Shown here: piece by piece, positions 49,211 through 54,878 of the stretch | Position numbering within the stretch: the first letter of the stretch is position 1 | Layout of the letters: each line of letters opens with the position of its first letter | DNA from: Hymenobacter sp. DG25A | Lineage (GTDB): Bacteria; Bacteroidota; Bacteroidia; Cytophagales; Hymenobacteraceae | Direction of reading: 5' to 3' | Assembly: GCF_001280305.1 (NCBI RefSeq) | Contig: NZ_CP012623.1 | Location: 3,286,001-3,350,000, forward strand | Length of the DNA: 64,000 bases | Program-made: the position numbers and the translations under genes | Notes under the pieces: generated by a model | The model's database searches: none | Told to the model about the DNA's origin: nothing | The model's input: the letters and a program-made list of their open reading frames with translations, nothing else

Positions 49211-50185
49211 TTATTCCGGGCGGGCAGCGGAGCGCAGCGTATCGATGGGGGCGGGAGCTACGGGCAAGCTGTCGGGCAGGGCCGCCGGGCGCGGCATGGG
49301 TGCTATTTTGGGAATGGGTTTTTTAGATGGTTTGGGCTTGCGGGCCGCCGTGGCCTTGGGCGTGCTCTTCTTTTTAGCCGCCGCAGCTTTGGCGGCCGCC
49401 GCCTCGGCCTTTAACTTGGTAATGCGCCGCTCCAGATTCTCGAGCATGTACTGCGCATCGGACTTAAACTGTGGCTCCGTGAACAGGGCCACGGCCAGCT
49501 GGGCCTCGTGGCGGGCTTTGGGCAGCTGGTGCAGCTCTATGTAGTCGTAAGCCAGGTTGAAATGGGCCAGGGCGTAGTTCTTGCGCAGGGAAATGGTGTG
49601 CTCAAAGGCCCCTGAGCTGGCTTTAAACTGACCCAGCCGCATGTAGGCATAGCCCAGGGCATAGTAGGAAAGGTAGTCGCCGTAACCGTGCTTGTGGGCT
49701 GCTTCGTAATGCTGCACCATCAATGGGAACAGGTTGTCTTCGGTGCGGCCGGGCTCGGCGCAGCCACACTGCTGCACCTCAAAATAGTAGTCGGCCAGGC
49801 CTTTATCCAGCTTATAGTTATCGGGGTACTTCTTGTGCAGGCCTTCCAGAATGGTGCGCACGGGAAAGAAAAAGGCCAGCGTATCGGTGCGGGCCAGCAC
49901 CCGGATGGAGTCCAGCGGCTGGGTGAGCGAGAGGTTGCGGAAGGCAAACCGGCGGTAGTTCAGGTGCCGGCTGTGGTACTGCAGCGCCAGCTCCGAGGCC
50001 ATAAGCGCCACGGCCGGGCGCTTATGCTCGGGGTCAAAGTTCTGCAGCAGTACAAAGGCCGACTCATACTTGCGCTCCAAGATCAGCTGGTTGGCCCGCT
50101 GCAGCACAATAGACTCGCCCTGCGCCCACGCGCCGGCCACTGGCAGCAGCCAGCTCAACAATAACAACACTCTAAAACGCATCAT
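49211..50185 (-). CDS. TPR-containing secreted protein
   Basis: 324 residues with a signal peptide (cleavage near VAGAWAQ, about residue 22). The central region (about 160-250) has tetratricopeptide-like helices (YLSYYALGYAYMRLGQFKASSGAFEHTISLRKNYALAHFNLAYDYIELHQ). The last 75 residues are low-complexity Ala/Lys/Pro, probably disordered. A QQCGCAEPG segment is a possible disulfide. Met at 50185 or 50182 may start it. The function is unknown. It is divergent from the aromatic operon, about 150 bp from the leader promoter region. Confidence 0.82.
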   Translation of the reverse strand: MMRFRVLLLLSWLLPVAGAWAQGESIVLQRANQLILERKYESAFVLLQNFDPEHKRPAVALMASELALQYHSRHLNYRRFAFRNLSLTQPLDSIRVLARTDTLAFFFPVRTILEGLHKKYPDNYKLDKGLADYYFEVQQCGCAEPGRTEDNLFPLMVQHYEAAHKHGYGDYLSYYALGYAYMRLGQFKASSGAFEHTISLRKNYALAHFNLAYDYIELHQLPKARHEAQLAVALFTEPQFKSDAQYMLENLERRITKLKAEAAAAKAAAAKKKSTPKATAARKPKPSKKPIPKIAPMPRPAALPDSLPVAPAPIDTLRSAARPE

Positions 50186-50282
50186 GCAGGAGAATAGCGA
50201 AGCAAGATACTGCCCCGGCCGCATTCAGGGCATAAACCGGGCCGGCTGACGGCAAAGGTCATCGAAAACTGCCCCCAGTACC

Positions 50283-50312
50283 TTGCATTTTCGAAATCCT
50301 TGGCTAGCTTTG
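50283..50312 (+). promoter_or_regulatory. Bacteroidota-type promoter of the aromatic amino-acid operon
   Basis: TTG at 50283-50285, exactly 19 bp, then TAGCTTTG at 50305-50312: a perfect TTG-N19-TAnnTTTG match. Transcription should start about 7 nt later, leaving roughly 15 nt before the first leader peptide start at 50334. Confidence 0.85.
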
Positions 50313-50333
50313 GTCAACAACCCCCTGCAGATC

Positions 50334-50393
50334 ATGCCTACGCCCGCGGCCCGCTTCTATTTTAGCTACTACTTCTACTACGGCAAACCGTAG
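50334..50393 (+). CDS. Phe/Tyr-rich leader peptide 1
   Basis: A 19-residue frame ATG..TAG reading MPTPAARFYFSYYFYYGKP. Eight of ten consecutive residues (positions 8-17) are Phe or Tyr, in the order F-Y-F-S-Y-Y-F-Y-Y around one Ser. It is far too short to be a normal gene and too biased to be chance; the run sits directly before the first of two hairpins and upstream of pheA. This is the signature of an attenuator leader, in which ribosomes pause when charged tRNA-Phe or tRNA-Tyr is scarce. Known parallel: E. coli pheL. Expression of the peptide is inferred. Confidence 0.8.
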   Translation: MPTPAARFYFSYYFYYGKP

Positions 50394-50397
50394 CAGC

Positions 50398-50462
50398 GAG
50401 GCCCCTGTTTGTAGCATCATCCCACAAACTCATGCAAGCCTCCCTACCCGGAGGCTTTTTTT
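50398..50462 (+). promoter_or_regulatory. Attenuator 1: antiterminator and terminator
   Basis: Terminator stem AAGCCTCC (50436-50443) with GGAGGCTT (50450-50457) followed by T7. A competing pairing upstream is GAGGC (50398-50402) with GCCTC (50438-50442), extended by GTTTGT (50407-50412) with ACAAAC (50424-50429). The antiterminator arm begins only 4 nt after the leader 1 stop codon, so a ribosome finishing the leader would cover it and let the terminator form. Confidence 0.7.
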
Positions 50463-50479
50463 ACGCCCTTTCTGATTCC

Positions 50480-50566
50480 ATGCGTTCCGGTACCGCTCCT
50501 TTCAGCTTCTTCTTTCGCTACTACTTCTATTACCGGAAGCAGCGGGGCCCCTTTTGCATGTTCTAA
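50480..50566 (+). CDS. Phe/Tyr-rich leader peptide 2
   Basis: A 28-residue frame ATG..TAA starting MRSGTAPFSFFFRYYFYYRK. It has seven Phe and four Tyr codons, ten of them clustered between codons 8 and 28 with the run F-S-F-F-F-R-Y-Y-F-Y-Y at codons 8-18. It begins 17 bp after terminator 1, so it is translated only on transcripts that read through attenuator 1. It is followed by a second terminator and then pheA. The unrelated flanks (CGG AAG CAG and GGC CCC TTT) show it is not a simple copy of leader 1, although the aromatic cores are very similar. Confidence 0.8.
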   Translation: MRSGTAPFSFFFRYYFYYRKQRGPFCMF

Positions 50567-50620
50567 CCACTCAGAATGCAGCAACTACCTAGGGCCCCGC
50601 AACCGCGCCGGCCCTTTTTT
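50542..50620 (+). promoter_or_regulatory. Attenuator 2: 9-bp antiterminator and terminator
   Basis: Terminator: AGGGCC (50591-50596) pairs with GGCCCT (50610-50615), followed by T6. Antiterminator: GCGGGGCCC (50542-50550), which lies inside the last codons of leader 2, pairs perfectly over 9 bp with GGGCCCCGC (50592-50600), which includes the 5' arm of the terminator. A ribosome stalled at the Phe/Tyr run (ending at 50533) leaves 50542-50550 free, so the operon is read; a ribosome reaching the stop codon (50564-50566) covers it and termination follows. Confidence 0.8.
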
Positions 50621-50643
50621 ATTTCCGTTTTTCGCTGATTACC

Positions 50644-51477
50644 ATGCCGCATACCATTGCCATTCAGGGTTTCGAAGGCAGCTTCCACCAGATAGCTGCC
50701 CGGCACTACTTCGGCCCCGCGGCCCTGACTGCGCCCTGCGCCACGTTTGGAGAAGTGGTGCGTCAGGTAGCCAGCGGCACGGCACCCTATGGCCTGATGG
50801 CCATTGAAAACTCTATTGCCGGCAGCATTCTGCCCAACTATAACCTGCTGCGCCAGGCCAACCTGCGCGTAACCGGCGAGGTGTACCTGCAGATCCGGCA
50901 GCATCTGATGGCTTTGCCCGGCCAGCAGCTGGCCGATATTCAGGAGGTGCACTCCCATCCCATGGCCCTGCTGCAGTGCGCCGACTTCCTGAACCAGCAC
51001 GGCCCCTGGCGGCTGGTAGAAACCGAAGACACGGCTCTCAGTGCGCAGCGCATCCGGGAAGGGCTGCGCACGGGCATGGCCGCCGTGGCCGGCAAGCTGG
51101 CCGCCGAGCTGTTTGGGCTGGAAATTCTGGAGAAGGATATTCACTCCGAAAAGAAAAACTACACCCGCTTTCTGGCGTTGGCGCGGCCCGAGAATGCGGC
51201 GCCGGTGGCGCAGTCCAATAAAGCCTCGGTGTACTTCCATACCACCCACGCCCAGGGCAGCCTGGCCCAGGTGCTGGTCCGCATTGCCGGGCAGGGCATC
51301 AACCTATCCAAGCTCCAGTCCTTCCCCATTCCGGCCAAAACCTGGCATTACTACTTCCACGCCGACCTGGAGTTTGACGACCCGGCCCAGCTGGAAGCCG
51401 CGTTGCGGGAAATAAAGCCCGTAACGGAAGGGCTGGAGGTGCTGGGCGTATATCACAGAGGCGCCACCTATAAGTAA
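50644..51477 (+). CDS. pheA: Prephenate dehydratase
   Basis: 277 residues converting prephenate to phenylpyruvate, the Phe-specific step. The catalytic domain (about 4-185) has GFEGSFHQIAA at the start, AIENSIAGSI near residue 57 and NYTRFLAL (about 176-183), with the conserved TRF. A C-terminal ACT domain (about 195-272: HTTHAQGSLAQVLVRIAGQGINLSKLQSFPI) normally binds Phe for feedback inhibition; the usual ESRP motif reads QSFP here. There is no fused chorismate mutase; that activity sits on the DAHP synthase at the end of the operon. It is the first structural gene after the two attenuators. Confidence 0.95.
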   Translation: MPHTIAIQGFEGSFHQIAARHYFGPAALTAPCATFGEVVRQVASGTAPYGLMAIENSIAGSILPNYNLLRQANLRVTGEVYLQIRQHLMALPGQQLADIQEVHSHPMALLQCADFLNQHGPWRLVETEDTALSAQRIREGLRTGMAAVAGKLAAELFGLEILEKDIHSEKKNYTRFLALARPENAAPVAQSNKASVYFHTTHAQGSLAQVLVRIAGQGINLSKLQSFPIPAKTWHYYFHADLEFDDPAQLEAALREIKPVTEGLEVLGVYHRGATYK

Positions 51478-51605: not shown

Positions 51606-52799
51606 ATGCAAGTTTCCGTAGCCAGCCGCCTTCACCACACGCAGGAGTACTACTTCTCTCAGAAGCTGCGCGAAATTGAGAGGCTGAATAAGGCCGGCGC
51701 GCCGGTGATTAACCTGGGTATTGGCAGCCCGGATATGCCGCCGCATCCCCTCGTTATTGCGGCCCTTACTACCGCGGCCCAGCTGCCCAACACCCACGCC
51801 TATCAGAATTATAAAGGCGTGCCGGCCCTGCGCCAGGCCATGGCCGACTGGTACCAGCGGTTTTACGGCGTGGCGCTGAACCCGGAGGCGGAAGTGCTGC
51901 CGCTGTTGGGCTCCAAGGAAGGCATCATCCACATCAGCATGACGTTTCTGGAAGCCGGGGACGAAGTACTGATTCCGAACCCTGGCTACCCGGCCTACCG
52001 CGCCGCCGCCCAGCTCAGCGGCGCCACCCCCGTAGACTACGACCTGACCGCCGCCAACCACTGGCTGCCCGACCTGGAGGCGCTGGCCCACCAGGACCTG
52101 AGCCGCGTGAAGCTGATGTGGGTGAATTACCCGCACATGCCCACCGGCACCCCACCCGATGCCGCCTTTTTTGCCCGTCTGGTGGCTTTTGCCACGGCAC
52201 ACAATATTCTGCTGGTGCACGACAACCCCTACAGCTTCATTCTCAACCAGGAGCCGCCGCAAAGTTTGCTGGCCGTGCCGGGGGCGCGGGAAGTGGTGCT
52301 GGAGCTGAACTCCCTGAGTAAGTCGCACAACATGGCGGGCTGGCGCGTGGGCATGCTCCTGGGCCGCGCCGATTTGCTGCAGGAAGTGCTGCGCTTCAAG
52401 AGTAACCTCGATTCGGGTATGTTTCTGCCGGTGCAGCTGGCGGCCATCGAAGCCCTGCAGCTGGATGAAAGCTGGTACGCGGAGCTGAACGCCCATTATG
52501 CCGCCCGCCGGGAGCTGGTGTTTGAGCTGCTGGAAACCATTGGCTGCAGCTTTGCCCGCCAGCAGGTGGGCTTGTTTGTATGGTCGGCCATTCCGGCCGG
52601 GTATGCGGATGGCTTCGCCCTGAGCGACGAGTTGCTACACACGGCGCGGGTCTTCCTCACGCCCGGCGGCATTTTCGGTACCAATGGCAACGGCTTTATT
52701 CGGGTGAGTTTGTGCCAGCCCACGGCGGTGCTGCAGGCTGCTCTAGGGCGCATTCGCGCGGCCCGGGTTCAACCCTCTTTTACTACTTCAGCCTCATGA
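51606..52799 (+). CDS. Class I/II PLP-dependent aminotransferase (aromatic pathway)
   Basis: 397 residues of the fold type I aminotransferases. INLGIGSPDMPPHP, NTHAYQNYKGVPALRQAMADWY and LLGSKEGIIHISMTFLEAGDEVLIPNPGYP mark the N-terminal domain; SLSKSHNMAGWRVGML (about 237-252) holds the PLP-binding Lys; FLTPGGIFGTNGNGFIRVSLC closes the domain. It most resembles LL-diaminopimelate or aspartate aminotransferase-like enzymes. Its place between pheA and tyrA suggests it transaminates phenylpyruvate and 4-hydroxyphenylpyruvate (inference). Its TGA overlaps the tyrA ATG as ATGA. Confidence 0.92.
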   Translation: MQVSVASRLHHTQEYYFSQKLREIERLNKAGAPVINLGIGSPDMPPHPLVIAALTTAAQLPNTHAYQNYKGVPALRQAMADWYQRFYGVALNPEAEVLPLLGSKEGIIHISMTFLEAGDEVLIPNPGYPAYRAAAQLSGATPVDYDLTAANHWLPDLEALAHQDLSRVKLMWVNYPHMPTGTPPDAAFFARLVAFATAHNILLVHDNPYSFILNQEPPQSLLAVPGAREVVLELNSLSKSHNMAGWRVGMLLGRADLLQEVLRFKSNLDSGMFLPVQLAAIEALQLDESWYAELNAHYAARRELVFELLETIGCSFARQQVGLFVWSAIPAGYADGFALSDELLHTARVFLTPGGIFGTNGNGFIRVSLCQPTAVLQAALGRIRAARVQPSFTTSAS

Positions 52800-53641
52800 A
52801 AACTGTAACTATCATCGGTGTCGGGCTCATTGGCGGCTCACTGGCCATCAGCCTCCGGCAGAAAGGATTAGCCAGCCACATTATTGGGGTAGACCACAGC
52901 CCCGAAAACCTGCTGCAGGCCCGGCAGCTACAGCTGATTGACGAAGGCACCCCGGACCTGATCAGCGCCGTGCGCCGGGCCGACCTGGTGGTAGTGGCCG
53001 TGCCCATGGATGCCATGCTCACGGTGCTGCCCCAGGTTTTGGATGCGGTGAAAAACCAGGTAGTTATCGACGTGGGCTCTACCAAATCCATGCTGCTGAC
53101 CGCTGTGGCCGGGCATCCCAAGCGGGGCCGTTTCGTGGCCGTGCACCCCATGGCCGGCACCGAATACTCCGGCCCGGAAGCCGCCGTGCCGGAACTGTTC
53201 ACCGACAAAACCTTGGTTATCTGCGACGCCGAACAGAGTGATGCTGATGCCGTGGCGCAGGTGCAAAGCCTCTTCGAACAGCTGCAGATGAACATTGAGT
53301 ACCTCGATGCGGCTGCTCATGATTTGCATACGGCGTACGTGTCACACATTTCCCATATCACGTCTTTCGCACTGGCCCTCACCGTATTAGAAAAGGAAAA
53401 GGAAGAGCAGCAGATTTTTGCCCTGGCCAGCGGGGGCTTCGCCTCCACCGTGCGCCTGGCCAAAAGCTCCCCCGATATGTGGGTGCCCATCTTCCGCCAG
53501 AACCGCGTGAACGTGCTGGATGTACTCGATGAGCACATTCACCAGCTGCAGCACCTGCGCCAGCTCATTGCCCAGGAAGACTACGCCGCCGTGTACCAGC
53601 AGATCCAGCAAGCCAACCTCATTAAGAAAATTCTGAAGTAA
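52796..53641 (+). CDS. tyrA: Prephenate dehydrogenase
   Basis: 281 residues making 4-hydroxyphenylpyruvate from prephenate for Tyr synthesis. The NAD(P)-binding motif GVGLIGGSLA (8-17), a second strand IIGVDHS, the active-site segment AVHPMAGTEYSG, and the C-terminal helical dimerisation domain (HDLHTAYVSHISHITSFALA) are all recognisable. The ATG overlaps the stop of the aminotransferase by 4 bp (ATGA), implying coupled translation. There is no ACT domain, so feedback control may lie elsewhere. Confidence 0.94.
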   Translation: MKTVTIIGVGLIGGSLAISLRQKGLASHIIGVDHSPENLLQARQLQLIDEGTPDLISAVRRADLVVVAVPMDAMLTVLPQVLDAVKNQVVIDVGSTKSMLLTAVAGHPKRGRFVAVHPMAGTEYSGPEAAVPELFTDKTLVICDAEQSDADAVAQVQSLFEQLQMNIEYLDAAAHDLHTAYVSHISHITSFALALTVLEKEKEEQQIFALASGGFASTVRLAKSSPDMWVPIFRQNRVNVLDVLDEHIHQLQHLRQLIAQEDYAAVYQQIQQANLIKKILK

Positions 53642-53657: not shown

Positions 53658-53755
53658 GTCATGTCGAGCGCAGTCGAGACATCTCGCTAGTGTGGTAAAC
53701 CTAATTACTACTACTACATCAGCACGCGAGATGTCTCGACTCCGCTCGACATGAC
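53658..53755. repeat. Family A palindromic repeat, copy A3
   Basis: 98 bp, ends GTCATGTCGAGC and GCTCGACATGAC, inner arms GAGACATCTCGC and GCGAGATGTCTC. Its centre matches A1 in reverse orientation (CTAGTGTGGTAAA here, TTTACCACACTAG in A1), so both orientations occur. It begins 17 bp past the tyrA stop, inside the operon. Confidence 0.92.
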
Positions 53756-53804
53756 CGGTACAAGGCATCATTTTTCTACAAAACTCAAAAACCAGCCATA
53801 CATC

Positions 53805-54878
53805 ATGCAATCTGCCCTTTTCAACCGCCAGCCAGACGATAAGCCTTACCTGATTTCCGGACCCTGCTCCGCCGAAACCGAAGAGCAGGTGCTGGATACC
53901 TGCCAGCGCCTGGCCGCCACCGGCAAGGTGCAGGCCCTGCGCGCCGGCATCTGGAAGCCCCGCACCAAGCCCGGCGGCTTTGAGGGCGTGGGCACCAAGG
54001 GCCTGCCCTGGCTCAAGAAAGCCAGTGAGCTGACGGGCCTGCCGATAGCCGTAGAAGTAGCCACCGCCAAGCACGTGGAAGACTGCTTGGCCTTTGGGGT
54101 AGATATTTTGTGGGTGGGCGCCCGCACCACCGGCAACCCGTTTTCGGTGCAGGAAATTGCCAACGTGCTGCGCGGCGTGCAGGTACCGGTGCTGGTGAAA
54201 AACCCCATTCACCCGGAGCTGGAGCTGTGGGTGGGCGCCGTGGAGCGCCTGCAAAAGGCCGGGCTGGAAAAAGTGGGCCTCATTCACCGGGGCTTCAGCA
54301 GCTACGGCAACACCGACTACCGCAACGCGCCCATGTGGCACCTGCCCATCGAGATGAAGCGCCGCCAACCGGAAATGCCGCTGCTCTGCGACCCCAGCCA
54401 CATCTGCGGCCGCCGCGATACGCTCTTCGCCGTGGCCCAGCAGGCCCTCAACCTGGGCTTCGATGGCAACATGATTGAGAGCCATCAGAACCCCGACGCG
54501 GCCTGGAGCGACGCCAAGCAGCAAATCACGCCCGAAGTACTGAAGGACCTGATTCAGGATTTGGTGTGGCGCCACGAAACCACCAACCAGCGCGAGTTCC
54601 TGACGGCCCTGGCCAGCCTGCGCGAGCAAATCAACCAGCTCGATGCCGAAATTATCCAGCTGCTGGGTCGCCGCATGGGCGTGGCCGAAAAAATAGGCGA
54701 GTACAAGAAGGAAAACGACATCACCATCCTGCAGACCAGCCGCTGGAACGAAGTGCTGGAGCGCGCCCAGCGCCAGGGCACGTCTGTGGGACTCACCCCG
54801 GAGTTTGTAGAGCAGTATTTCGCCGCCGTGCACCTGGAGTCCATCAACCGGCAGAACGCCATAATGAACCGGGAGTAA
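53805..54878 (+). CDS. Bifunctional DAHP synthase / chorismate mutase
   Basis: 357 residues from the ATG at 53805. The first part (about 1-255) is a DAHP synthase of the KDO8P-synthase-like (type I-beta) group: YLISGPCSAETEEQV, ALRAGIWKPRTKPGGFEGVG, and VEVATAKHVE, with the Cys and His metal ligands (GPCS; LCDPSHICG). The C-terminal part (about 262-345, REQINQLDAEIIQLLGRRMGVAEKIGEYKKENDITILQ) is an AroQ-type chorismate mutase. It thus catalyses both the entry step and the branch step to prephenate. The gene follows tyrA by 163 bp with repeat A3 between them. A longer start at 53751 is unlikely because it begins inside the repeat. Confidence 0.94.
   Translation: MQSALFNRQPDDKPYLISGPCSAETEEQVLDTCQRLAATGKVQALRAGIWKPRTKPGGFEGVGTKGLPWLKKASELTGLPIAVEVATAKHVEDCLAFGVDILWVGARTTGNPFSVQEIANVLRGVQVPVLVKNPIHPELELWVGAVERLQKAGLEKVGLIHRGFSSYGNTDYRNAPMWHLPIEMKRRQPEMPLLCDPSHICGRRDTLFAVAQQALNLGFDGNMIESHQNPDAAWSDAKQQITPEVLKDLIQDLVWRHETTNQREFLTALASLREQINQLDAEIIQLLGRRMGVAEKIGEYKKENDITILQTSRWNEVLERAQRQGTSVGLTPEFVEQYFAAVHLESINRQNAIMNRE

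Follow-up and report, generated by a model that had tools for sequence, protein, structure and literature searches.

What controls the aromatic amino-acid operon headed by pheA in Hymenobacter sp. DG25A, and what do the two short Phe/Tyr-rich frames in front of it do? A preliminary description had proposed two leader-peptide attenuators in series at this position. We examined the locus within a stretch of 64,000 nucleotides (the window) and in related genomes. The frames, terminators, alternative arms, conservation and operon content were read directly from sequence and comparison. Conservation of the units, selection on their coding frames and co-variation of the alternative stems support the same reading, to which we assign a probability of about 0.86: two Phe/Tyr ribosome-mediated transcription attenuators would lie in series before pheA on one transcript. 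From the divergent ORF to pheA, the order on the plus strand is promoter-like element, leader 1, terminator 1 (T1), leader 2 and terminator 2 (T2). The features are as follows.

49211-50224, minus strand: divergent ORF upstream of the leader region
50283-50312, plus strand: promoter-like element TTG-N19-TAGCTTTG of the Bacteroidota -33/-7 type, from the sequence (TTG at 50283-50285, TAGCTTTG at 50305-50312, N19 between)
50334-50393, plus strand: leader peptide 1, MPTPAARFYFSYYFYYGKP, 19 codons, from the frame and pN/pS
50398-50402, plus strand: antiterminator 1 5' arm, GAGGC, directly 3' of the leader 1 stop; partner 50438-50442
50407-50429, plus strand: antiterminator 1 inner helix, GTTTGT (50407-50412) with ACAAAC (50424-50429), from the fold of the truncated transcript
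50436-50462, plus strand: T1, AAGCCTCC-loop-GGAGGCTT and T tract, from hairpin folding
50480-50566, plus strand: leader peptide 2, MRSGTAPFSFFFRYYFYYRKQRGPFCMF (ending in FSFFFRYYFYYRKQRGPFCMF), 28 codons, from the frame, the start in relatives and pN/pS
50542-50550, plus strand: antiterminator 2 5' arm, GCGGGGCCC, within leader 2 past the last Tyr codons; partner 50592-50600
50591-50620, plus strand: T2, AGGGCCCCGC...GCCGGCCCT and T tract, from hairpin folding
50644-51477, plus strand: pheA, prephenate dehydratase (best NCBIfam matches, under the curated cut-offs)
51606-52799, plus strand: class I aminotransferase (NCBIfam matches under the curated cut-offs)
52796-53641, plus strand: tyrA, prephenate dehydrogenase (NCBIfam match over the cut-off; start from the ORF translation)
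53751-54878, plus strand: DAHP synthase fused to chorismate mutase (NCBIfam matches under the curated cut-offs)

Only tyrA among these genes passed an NCBIfam cut-off. Judged by its gene content, the operon is expected to supply Phe as well as Tyr.

The small Phe/Tyr frames of 19 and 28 codons were found where the preliminary description had placed them. They were the only small ATG frames (10-60 aa, both strands of the window) with at least six Phe or Tyr per ten codons, and none arose in 30 strands of window length simulated with a first-order Markov model. A bare run of five Phe/Tyr codons matched 46 times genome-wide, compared with 37 times for a reversed control pattern, so the evidence lies in the frame, its position and its conservation rather than in the run itself. 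In-frame pN/pS for leader 1 was 0.54 (19-aa form) or 0.47 (17-aa form), against 0.82-1.62 in shifted frames; the corresponding values for leader 2 were 0.53 (26-aa form) and 0.73-1.21. These ratios indicate that both leaders are under in-frame purifying selection, from which we infer that they are translated. A chance origin of the leaders was ruled out by the Markov control and the in-frame selection. An in-frame ATG at 50432, just 5' of T1, was rejected as the start of leader 2 because it lies off the start position of relatives, which agrees with 50480.

Each leader is followed by a GC hairpin and a T tract, with pheA behind the second, as had been described. The T1 hairpin (50436-50457) has 8 bp, a folding energy of -12.7 kcal/mol that none of 200 shuffles reached, and seven T; the T2 hairpin (50591-50615) has -14.1 kcal/mol, with 4/200 shuffles as stable, and six T. 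When T2 was folded with 15 more upstream bases, 27/200 shuffles were as stable, and a generic terminator scanner detected T1 and missed T2. The alternative 9-bp pairing claimed for the T2 5' arm, between 50542-50550 and 50592-50600, held up well, at -24.1 kcal/mol, whereas shuffled spacers gave -9.8 (0/200 as good). The weaker 5+6 bp alternative at T1 (50398-50402 with 50438-50442, and 50407-50412 with 50424-50429) was also found, at -10.0 against -6.2 for shuffled spacers, with 5.5% of shuffles as good. In the full-length minimum-energy fold of this genome, T1 was always present; given this and the weak antiterminator 1, unit 1 would need co-transcriptional kinetics here. The region of antiterminator 1 (about 50385-50435) paired better with the T2 5' arm at 50591 (-17.2) than with T1 (-10.0), and cross-talk between the units by way of this region and T2 is possible.

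The locus thus combines an intrinsic terminator separating the leader from the first gene, a short frame rich in product codons (its translation judged from selection) and a mutually exclusive antiterminator arm past the control codons. This arm is strong in unit 2 and weak in unit 1 of this genome; across the genus the unit 1 arm is stronger and co-varies, and full-length folds are mixed.

The preliminary description had made its claim depend on the conservation of frames and stems in relatives; the genome-only part of that test was run, and the claim survived. A pheA match was found in 107 of 120 Hymenobacter genomes, and 105 upstream regions were used, G107 and G114 being left out for broken or very weak pheA matches. 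The leader filter called for at least five Phe/Tyr in ten codons and an ATG start, so that the final counts miss GTG and TTG starts. Two aromatic leaders were present in 82/105 regions and one in 23/105. Leader and terminator pairs were called automatically for both units in 72/105 loci, which we refer to as the strict tandem set. The automatic filter failed one terminator in 10 of the 82 two-leader genomes (both terminators in G100), and in G026 and G044 both hairpins were visible in the sequence despite this failure. Second frames that the filter marked at L053, L060, L085, L091, G289, L274 and L286 were not counted as tandem.

All 23 single-leader genomes carry a first-type leader (RYFFGFYYF.., RFFFSYYFYY.. 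and kin) with a T1-like terminator, a pattern that points to loss of the second unit in them. Among these, the leader 1 frame of G054, G004, G066, G035, G059 and G079 extends beyond the usual stop to an AAVL end, which places the usual post-stop arm in-frame. The 13 of 120 genomes without any pheA match, 11 of which are at least 99% complete, could be Phe auxotrophs or carry a divergent enzyme.

We measured co-variation of the stems as matched versus mismatched pairing energies together with a list of variants, instead of a per-column count, because MAFFT shifts the arms in the two alignments, which, once similar sequences had been thinned out, comprised 32 and 55 members of the strict tandem set (72 genomes). 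The unit 1 arm begins at the stop codon, whereas the unit 2 arm sits in the reading frame (KQRGP, KKRGP, KKPARC...). In the strict tandem set, the median energy with the unit's own terminator was -16.1 for unit 1 and -14.9 for unit 2, against -9.4 and -9.9 with the terminator of the other unit; the own terminator was the better partner in 62/72 (unit 1) and 68/72 (unit 2) genomes, unit 1 of this genome being an exception. Matched pairings were also more stable than those from permuted genomes: -14.3 vs -11.1 for unit 1 (n=10 non-redundant), -15.8 vs -14.7 for unit 2 (n=26) and -12.7 vs -9.1 for single units from outside the genus (n=36), each with 0/2000 permutations as good. Unit 2 varies less than unit 1, and its gap is small; in the other genera, tandem units were too few (n=2 and n=3) for the permutation test to be informative. 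Compensatory variants included GTCGAG/CTCGAC, GTCGGG/CCCGAC, GAACGAG/CTCGTTC and GCAGCGAGG/CCTCCTGC. These data indicate that the antiterminator and terminator arms co-vary between genomes. In the genus, the duplex was better than 95% of shuffled spacers in 77/99 first-leader and 39/77 second-leader cases, and a genome's own arm ranked in the top 5% when compared with the arms of other genomes in 40/72 (unit 1) and 16/72 (unit 2).

Full-length minimum-energy folds switched in 25/72 (unit 1) and 21/72 (unit 2) genus genomes and in 0/11 for unit 1 of other genera. Because these folds gave mixed results and ignore the order of synthesis, we dropped them as the sole test and folded transcripts truncated just 5' of the terminator 3' arm, with a capture cut-off of 0.4. 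With the ribosome on the third aromatic codon, the terminator 5' arm was captured in 72/72 genomes for both units; when the ribosome was placed at the stop codon instead, capture fell to 11% (unit 1) and 17% (unit 2) of genomes. Switching was thus predicted in 64/72 (unit 1) and 60/72 (unit 2) genomes, and in 67/68 named single-unit loci outside the genus. In this genome, capture at the stop codon was 0.50 and 0.44, so neither unit counts as switching. Shuffled spacers also captured the arm in 60-82% of cases, and capture alone therefore discriminates weakly. A protector or pause stem formed by the leader with the antiterminator arm scored above 95% of shuffles in 21/72 genomes for unit 1 and 3/72 for unit 2, and none stands out.

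The weak antiterminator 1 and the presence of T1 in every full-length fold here would also fit a locus in which only attenuator 2 regulates, leader 1 and T1 being a decaying or damping relic that ends a constant share of transcripts; that 23/105 genus genomes are without one of the two units points in the same direction. We consider this unlikely, as leader 1 is under frame-specific selection, antiterminator 1 co-varies across the genus, and the unit type kept by single-leader Hymenobacter is the first, not the second.

The spacing of the units bears on another alternative, in which leader 1 with T1 makes up a short RNA or small gene complete in itself, and leader 2 is transcribed from a promoter of its own. 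T1, as a good terminator, would suit such an arrangement, but across the strict tandem set (72 genomes) the gap between T1 and leader 2 is just 11-28 nt and leaves little room for a separate promoter, which we rejected for this reason. A recognisable promoter-like element also lies upstream of leader 1, and two separate transcripts therefore seem improbable. The element, earlier called perfect, is indeed present at 50283-50312; its strict form, however, was conserved in just 3/105 genus loci, 12/40 family loci and 19/70 named loci with a leader. The exact match was accordingly rejected as evidence. A degenerate TTTG...ACCTTGC-like form is seen at a comparable place in the quarter of the genus rows that were inspected.

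The coding selection on both frames could in principle mean that they encode functional small (membrane) proteins rich in aromatic residues and are not sensors. Pairwise codon differences in the leader cores argue against this: Phe/Tyr swaps were frequent both in leader 1 (43 sequences; 1258 swaps, 1047 synonymous and 915 other differences) and in leader 2 (34 sequences; 950, 1097 and 1618, respectively). Where leader 2 overlies the RNA arm, its final codons have a pN/pS of 0.84 and show little protein constraint, and the pheA-proximal position with a terminator recurs in other families. Such proteins are a very remote alternative to the attenuators.

Under the serial-attenuator reading, the mechanism that we infer involves a single transcript, ribosome stalling, termination and a multiplicative effect. 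One transcript, starting near 50319, would cross both attenuators ahead of pheA, and at each a ribosome on the Phe/Tyr-rich leader would trail RNA polymerase. When charged tRNA-Phe or tRNA-Tyr is scarce, the ribosome would stall at the aromatic codons and free the stretch just downstream (past the stop in unit 1, in frame in unit 2), which would capture the 5' arm of the coming terminator and let polymerase read on. With both charged tRNAs ample, the ribosome would reach the stop and cover this stretch, and the terminator would form. Since polymerase must clear both units, leak-through would be the product of two probabilities, and the series would give deeper repression and a steeper response to one Phe-or-Tyr signal.

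The preliminary description had also suggested an AND-type response, which did not stand. Phe and Tyr make up 21.2% and 20.5% of leader 1 and 18.8% and 15.6% of leader 2 in Hymenobacter, and Phe/Tyr swaps are common in both cores. As each leader mixes the two codons, each unit alone should sense the lack of either amino acid; judged from the codons, the series should repeat and multiply one signal and not act as a Phe-AND-Tyr gate.

We then looked at other genera and at the phylum. An aromatic leader preceded pheA in 77/80 named loci (70/73 when Hymenobacter is excluded), the exceptions being L084, L089 and L100; these 80 were the best-matching loci, mostly of Flavobacteriaceae, so the share is no phylum average. 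In the class sample (36 new matching genomes, 27 analysed), a leader was present in 17/27 loci and absent in 10/27. The order sample held 67 matching genomes outside the genus, of which 21 were analysed (near full-length, at least 40% identity); in these other families of the same order, 7/21 loci passed the leader filter, three convincingly (G221, G263, G276), and 14/21 had no leader. The alternative arms outside the genus differ widely yet fit their own terminator (n=36). A single predicted Phe/Tyr leader device before pheA is thus widespread in the phylum. That a protein-binding element or metabolite riboswitch controls the terminators, with the frames incidental, found no support (Rfam matches in the window were zero) and can practically be dismissed, since the aromatic frames fit the pathway product, recur before pheA in 70/73 named loci outside the genus and have His and Trp counterparts in the same genome.

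Within the family, 61 genomes of other genera matched (168 less 107), and 41 were analysed. Tandem units were found in 3/3 loci of genus g6 and 8/22 of g5 (one clade), and in 0/8 of g4 and 0/8 of g2, the g2 loci comprising seven with a single leader and one with none. Outside Hymenobacter, tandem units therefore occur in two other Hymenobacteraceae genera, and also at two distant loci. At L045, a locus from a metagenome-assembled genome, the terminators and post-stop arms of the two units are nearly identical, and the tandem thus looks like a recent duplication. L266 carries two Phe/Tyr leaders with two hairpins at -354 to -89 upstream of pheA; GGACCATC lies close to where leader 2 ends, and the terminator of that leader shows GATGGTCC. 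If the Hymenobacteraceae, L045 and L266 lineages are unrelated, tandem units would have arisen at least three times. For Hymenobacteraceae, the PheA tree (102 columns only, with 83/151 forks open and nine changes needed for the tandem/single trait) fits either one origin with losses or several origins.

These occurrences allow a tentative generalisation, which we hold at somewhat less than even odds: Bacteroidota may repeatedly pair same-signal leader attenuators (Hymenobacteraceae, L045, L266) as a gain-multiplying device, the first antiterminator arm possibly aiding the second terminator in some species. If so, readthrough would be the product of two ribosome races, and the repressed level would be much lower and the response steeper than one attenuator can reach. 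One-unit and two-unit relatives would form a natural set for measuring the value of serial attenuators in leak, steepness and noise. Where the leader peptide is encoded over the antiterminator arm, its tail varies together with the terminator arm, a case of a peptide sequence being shaped by RNA pairing.

Enterobacterial pheL, trpL and hisL are the classical amino-acid leader attenuators. The Hymenobacter units resemble them in having a leader rich in product codons, an intrinsic terminator and an antiterminator downstream of the control codons; they differ in that two same-signal units stand in series with Phe and Tyr mixed, in the absence of a convincing protector stem, in the Bacteroidota promoter type and in having no Rfam match. 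At the gathering score, Rfam gave no match within the 64-kb window, so the element is assigned to no Rfam family.

Within the phylum, Table 7 of PMC1173090 marks a putative attenuator ahead of the pheA operon of B. thetaiotaomicron. The accessible text of PMC9723704 reports clues to leader-peptide attenuation before amino-acid operons in Flavobacteriaceae. It also reports, for Flavobacterium psychrophilum, a structured 5' element ahead of pheA that other Flavobacteriaceae genera have as well and that has no Rfam matches. These loci share with ours a pheA-headed aromatic operon, and PMC9723704, as far as available, likewise suggests leader-peptide attenuation for amino-acid operons. The elements of B. 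thetaiotaomicron and F. psychrophilum appear, from the available parts of PMC1173090 and PMC9723704, to be single units, whereas Hymenobacter has two; the B. thetaiotaomicron order is pheA > hisHb > aroA-aroQ > tyrA (PMC1173090, same part), whereas here tyrA precedes the DAHP synthase/chorismate mutase. The available part of PMC4833913 holds nothing on a pheA-headed aromatic operon. The earlier view that no description exists in Bacteroidota thus needs qualifying: a single attenuator before pheA is partly in print (PMC1173090, PMC9723704, as accessible), and the tandem form was not found in the literature searched. The accessible text of PMC9723704 also reports that Shine-Dalgarno sequences are absent in flavobacteria; leader-peptide attenuation would be widely used to control Phe/Tyr synthesis in a phylum that includes these bacteria.

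Other paired systems differ in kind, as far as the available parts of the sources describe them. Salmonella mgtCBR likewise has two short frames in one leader RNA (PMC3641672), but its units sense ATP and proline, whereas the Hymenobacter units share Phe/Tyr codons and each has a terminator; different signals per unit were not seen here, the Phe/Tyr shares judged from codons being alike. The aromatic supraoperon of S. pneumoniae also has two putative attenuators (PMC1173090), but the second lies inside the operon, after tyrA, whereas in Hymenobacter both precede the first gene. Two terminators in series are likewise found in the tandem riboswitches of B. clausii metE (described in PMC3641672) and in the rimP-leader (PMC2965389); those respond to RNA-sensed signals or an unknown sensor, unlike leader peptides with product codons. 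ErmB has two leader frames as well (PMC8274638), but these act by translational attenuation in response to an antibiotic, unlike the transcription attenuators proposed here. Same-signal tandem leader attenuators were not found in the literature searched, most subscription papers being outside its reach. What looks new is the tandem arrangement, together with its occurrence in several lineages and its pattern of loss; the device itself is of a known kind, and its single-unit form is broader than we found described, though partly in print.

Finally, we scanned upstream of other biosynthetic genes in the same genome. No convincing leader was found at two HMGL-like genes (leuA candidates) or at an ilvB-like gene, and one such frame each was found before hisG and trpE. 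Upstream of hisG (L255, about G000:C1:1450411-1450528, minus strand), a His-rich frame, MPLAAPFICSISPLAAAPAAAGWLRAAHHHLHGHHSSF (HHHLHGHH), is likely a His leader; a simple scan gave no convincing terminator there. Upstream of trpE (L256, about G000:C1:1899968-1900046, minus strand), the frame MTTQLTLQAWWWPLGISGRDNLCVR (AWWW) is followed by a strong hairpin, AAAGCCCGGCCATCCCGCCGGGCTTT, and a T tract before the gene, and this is likely a Trp attenuator.
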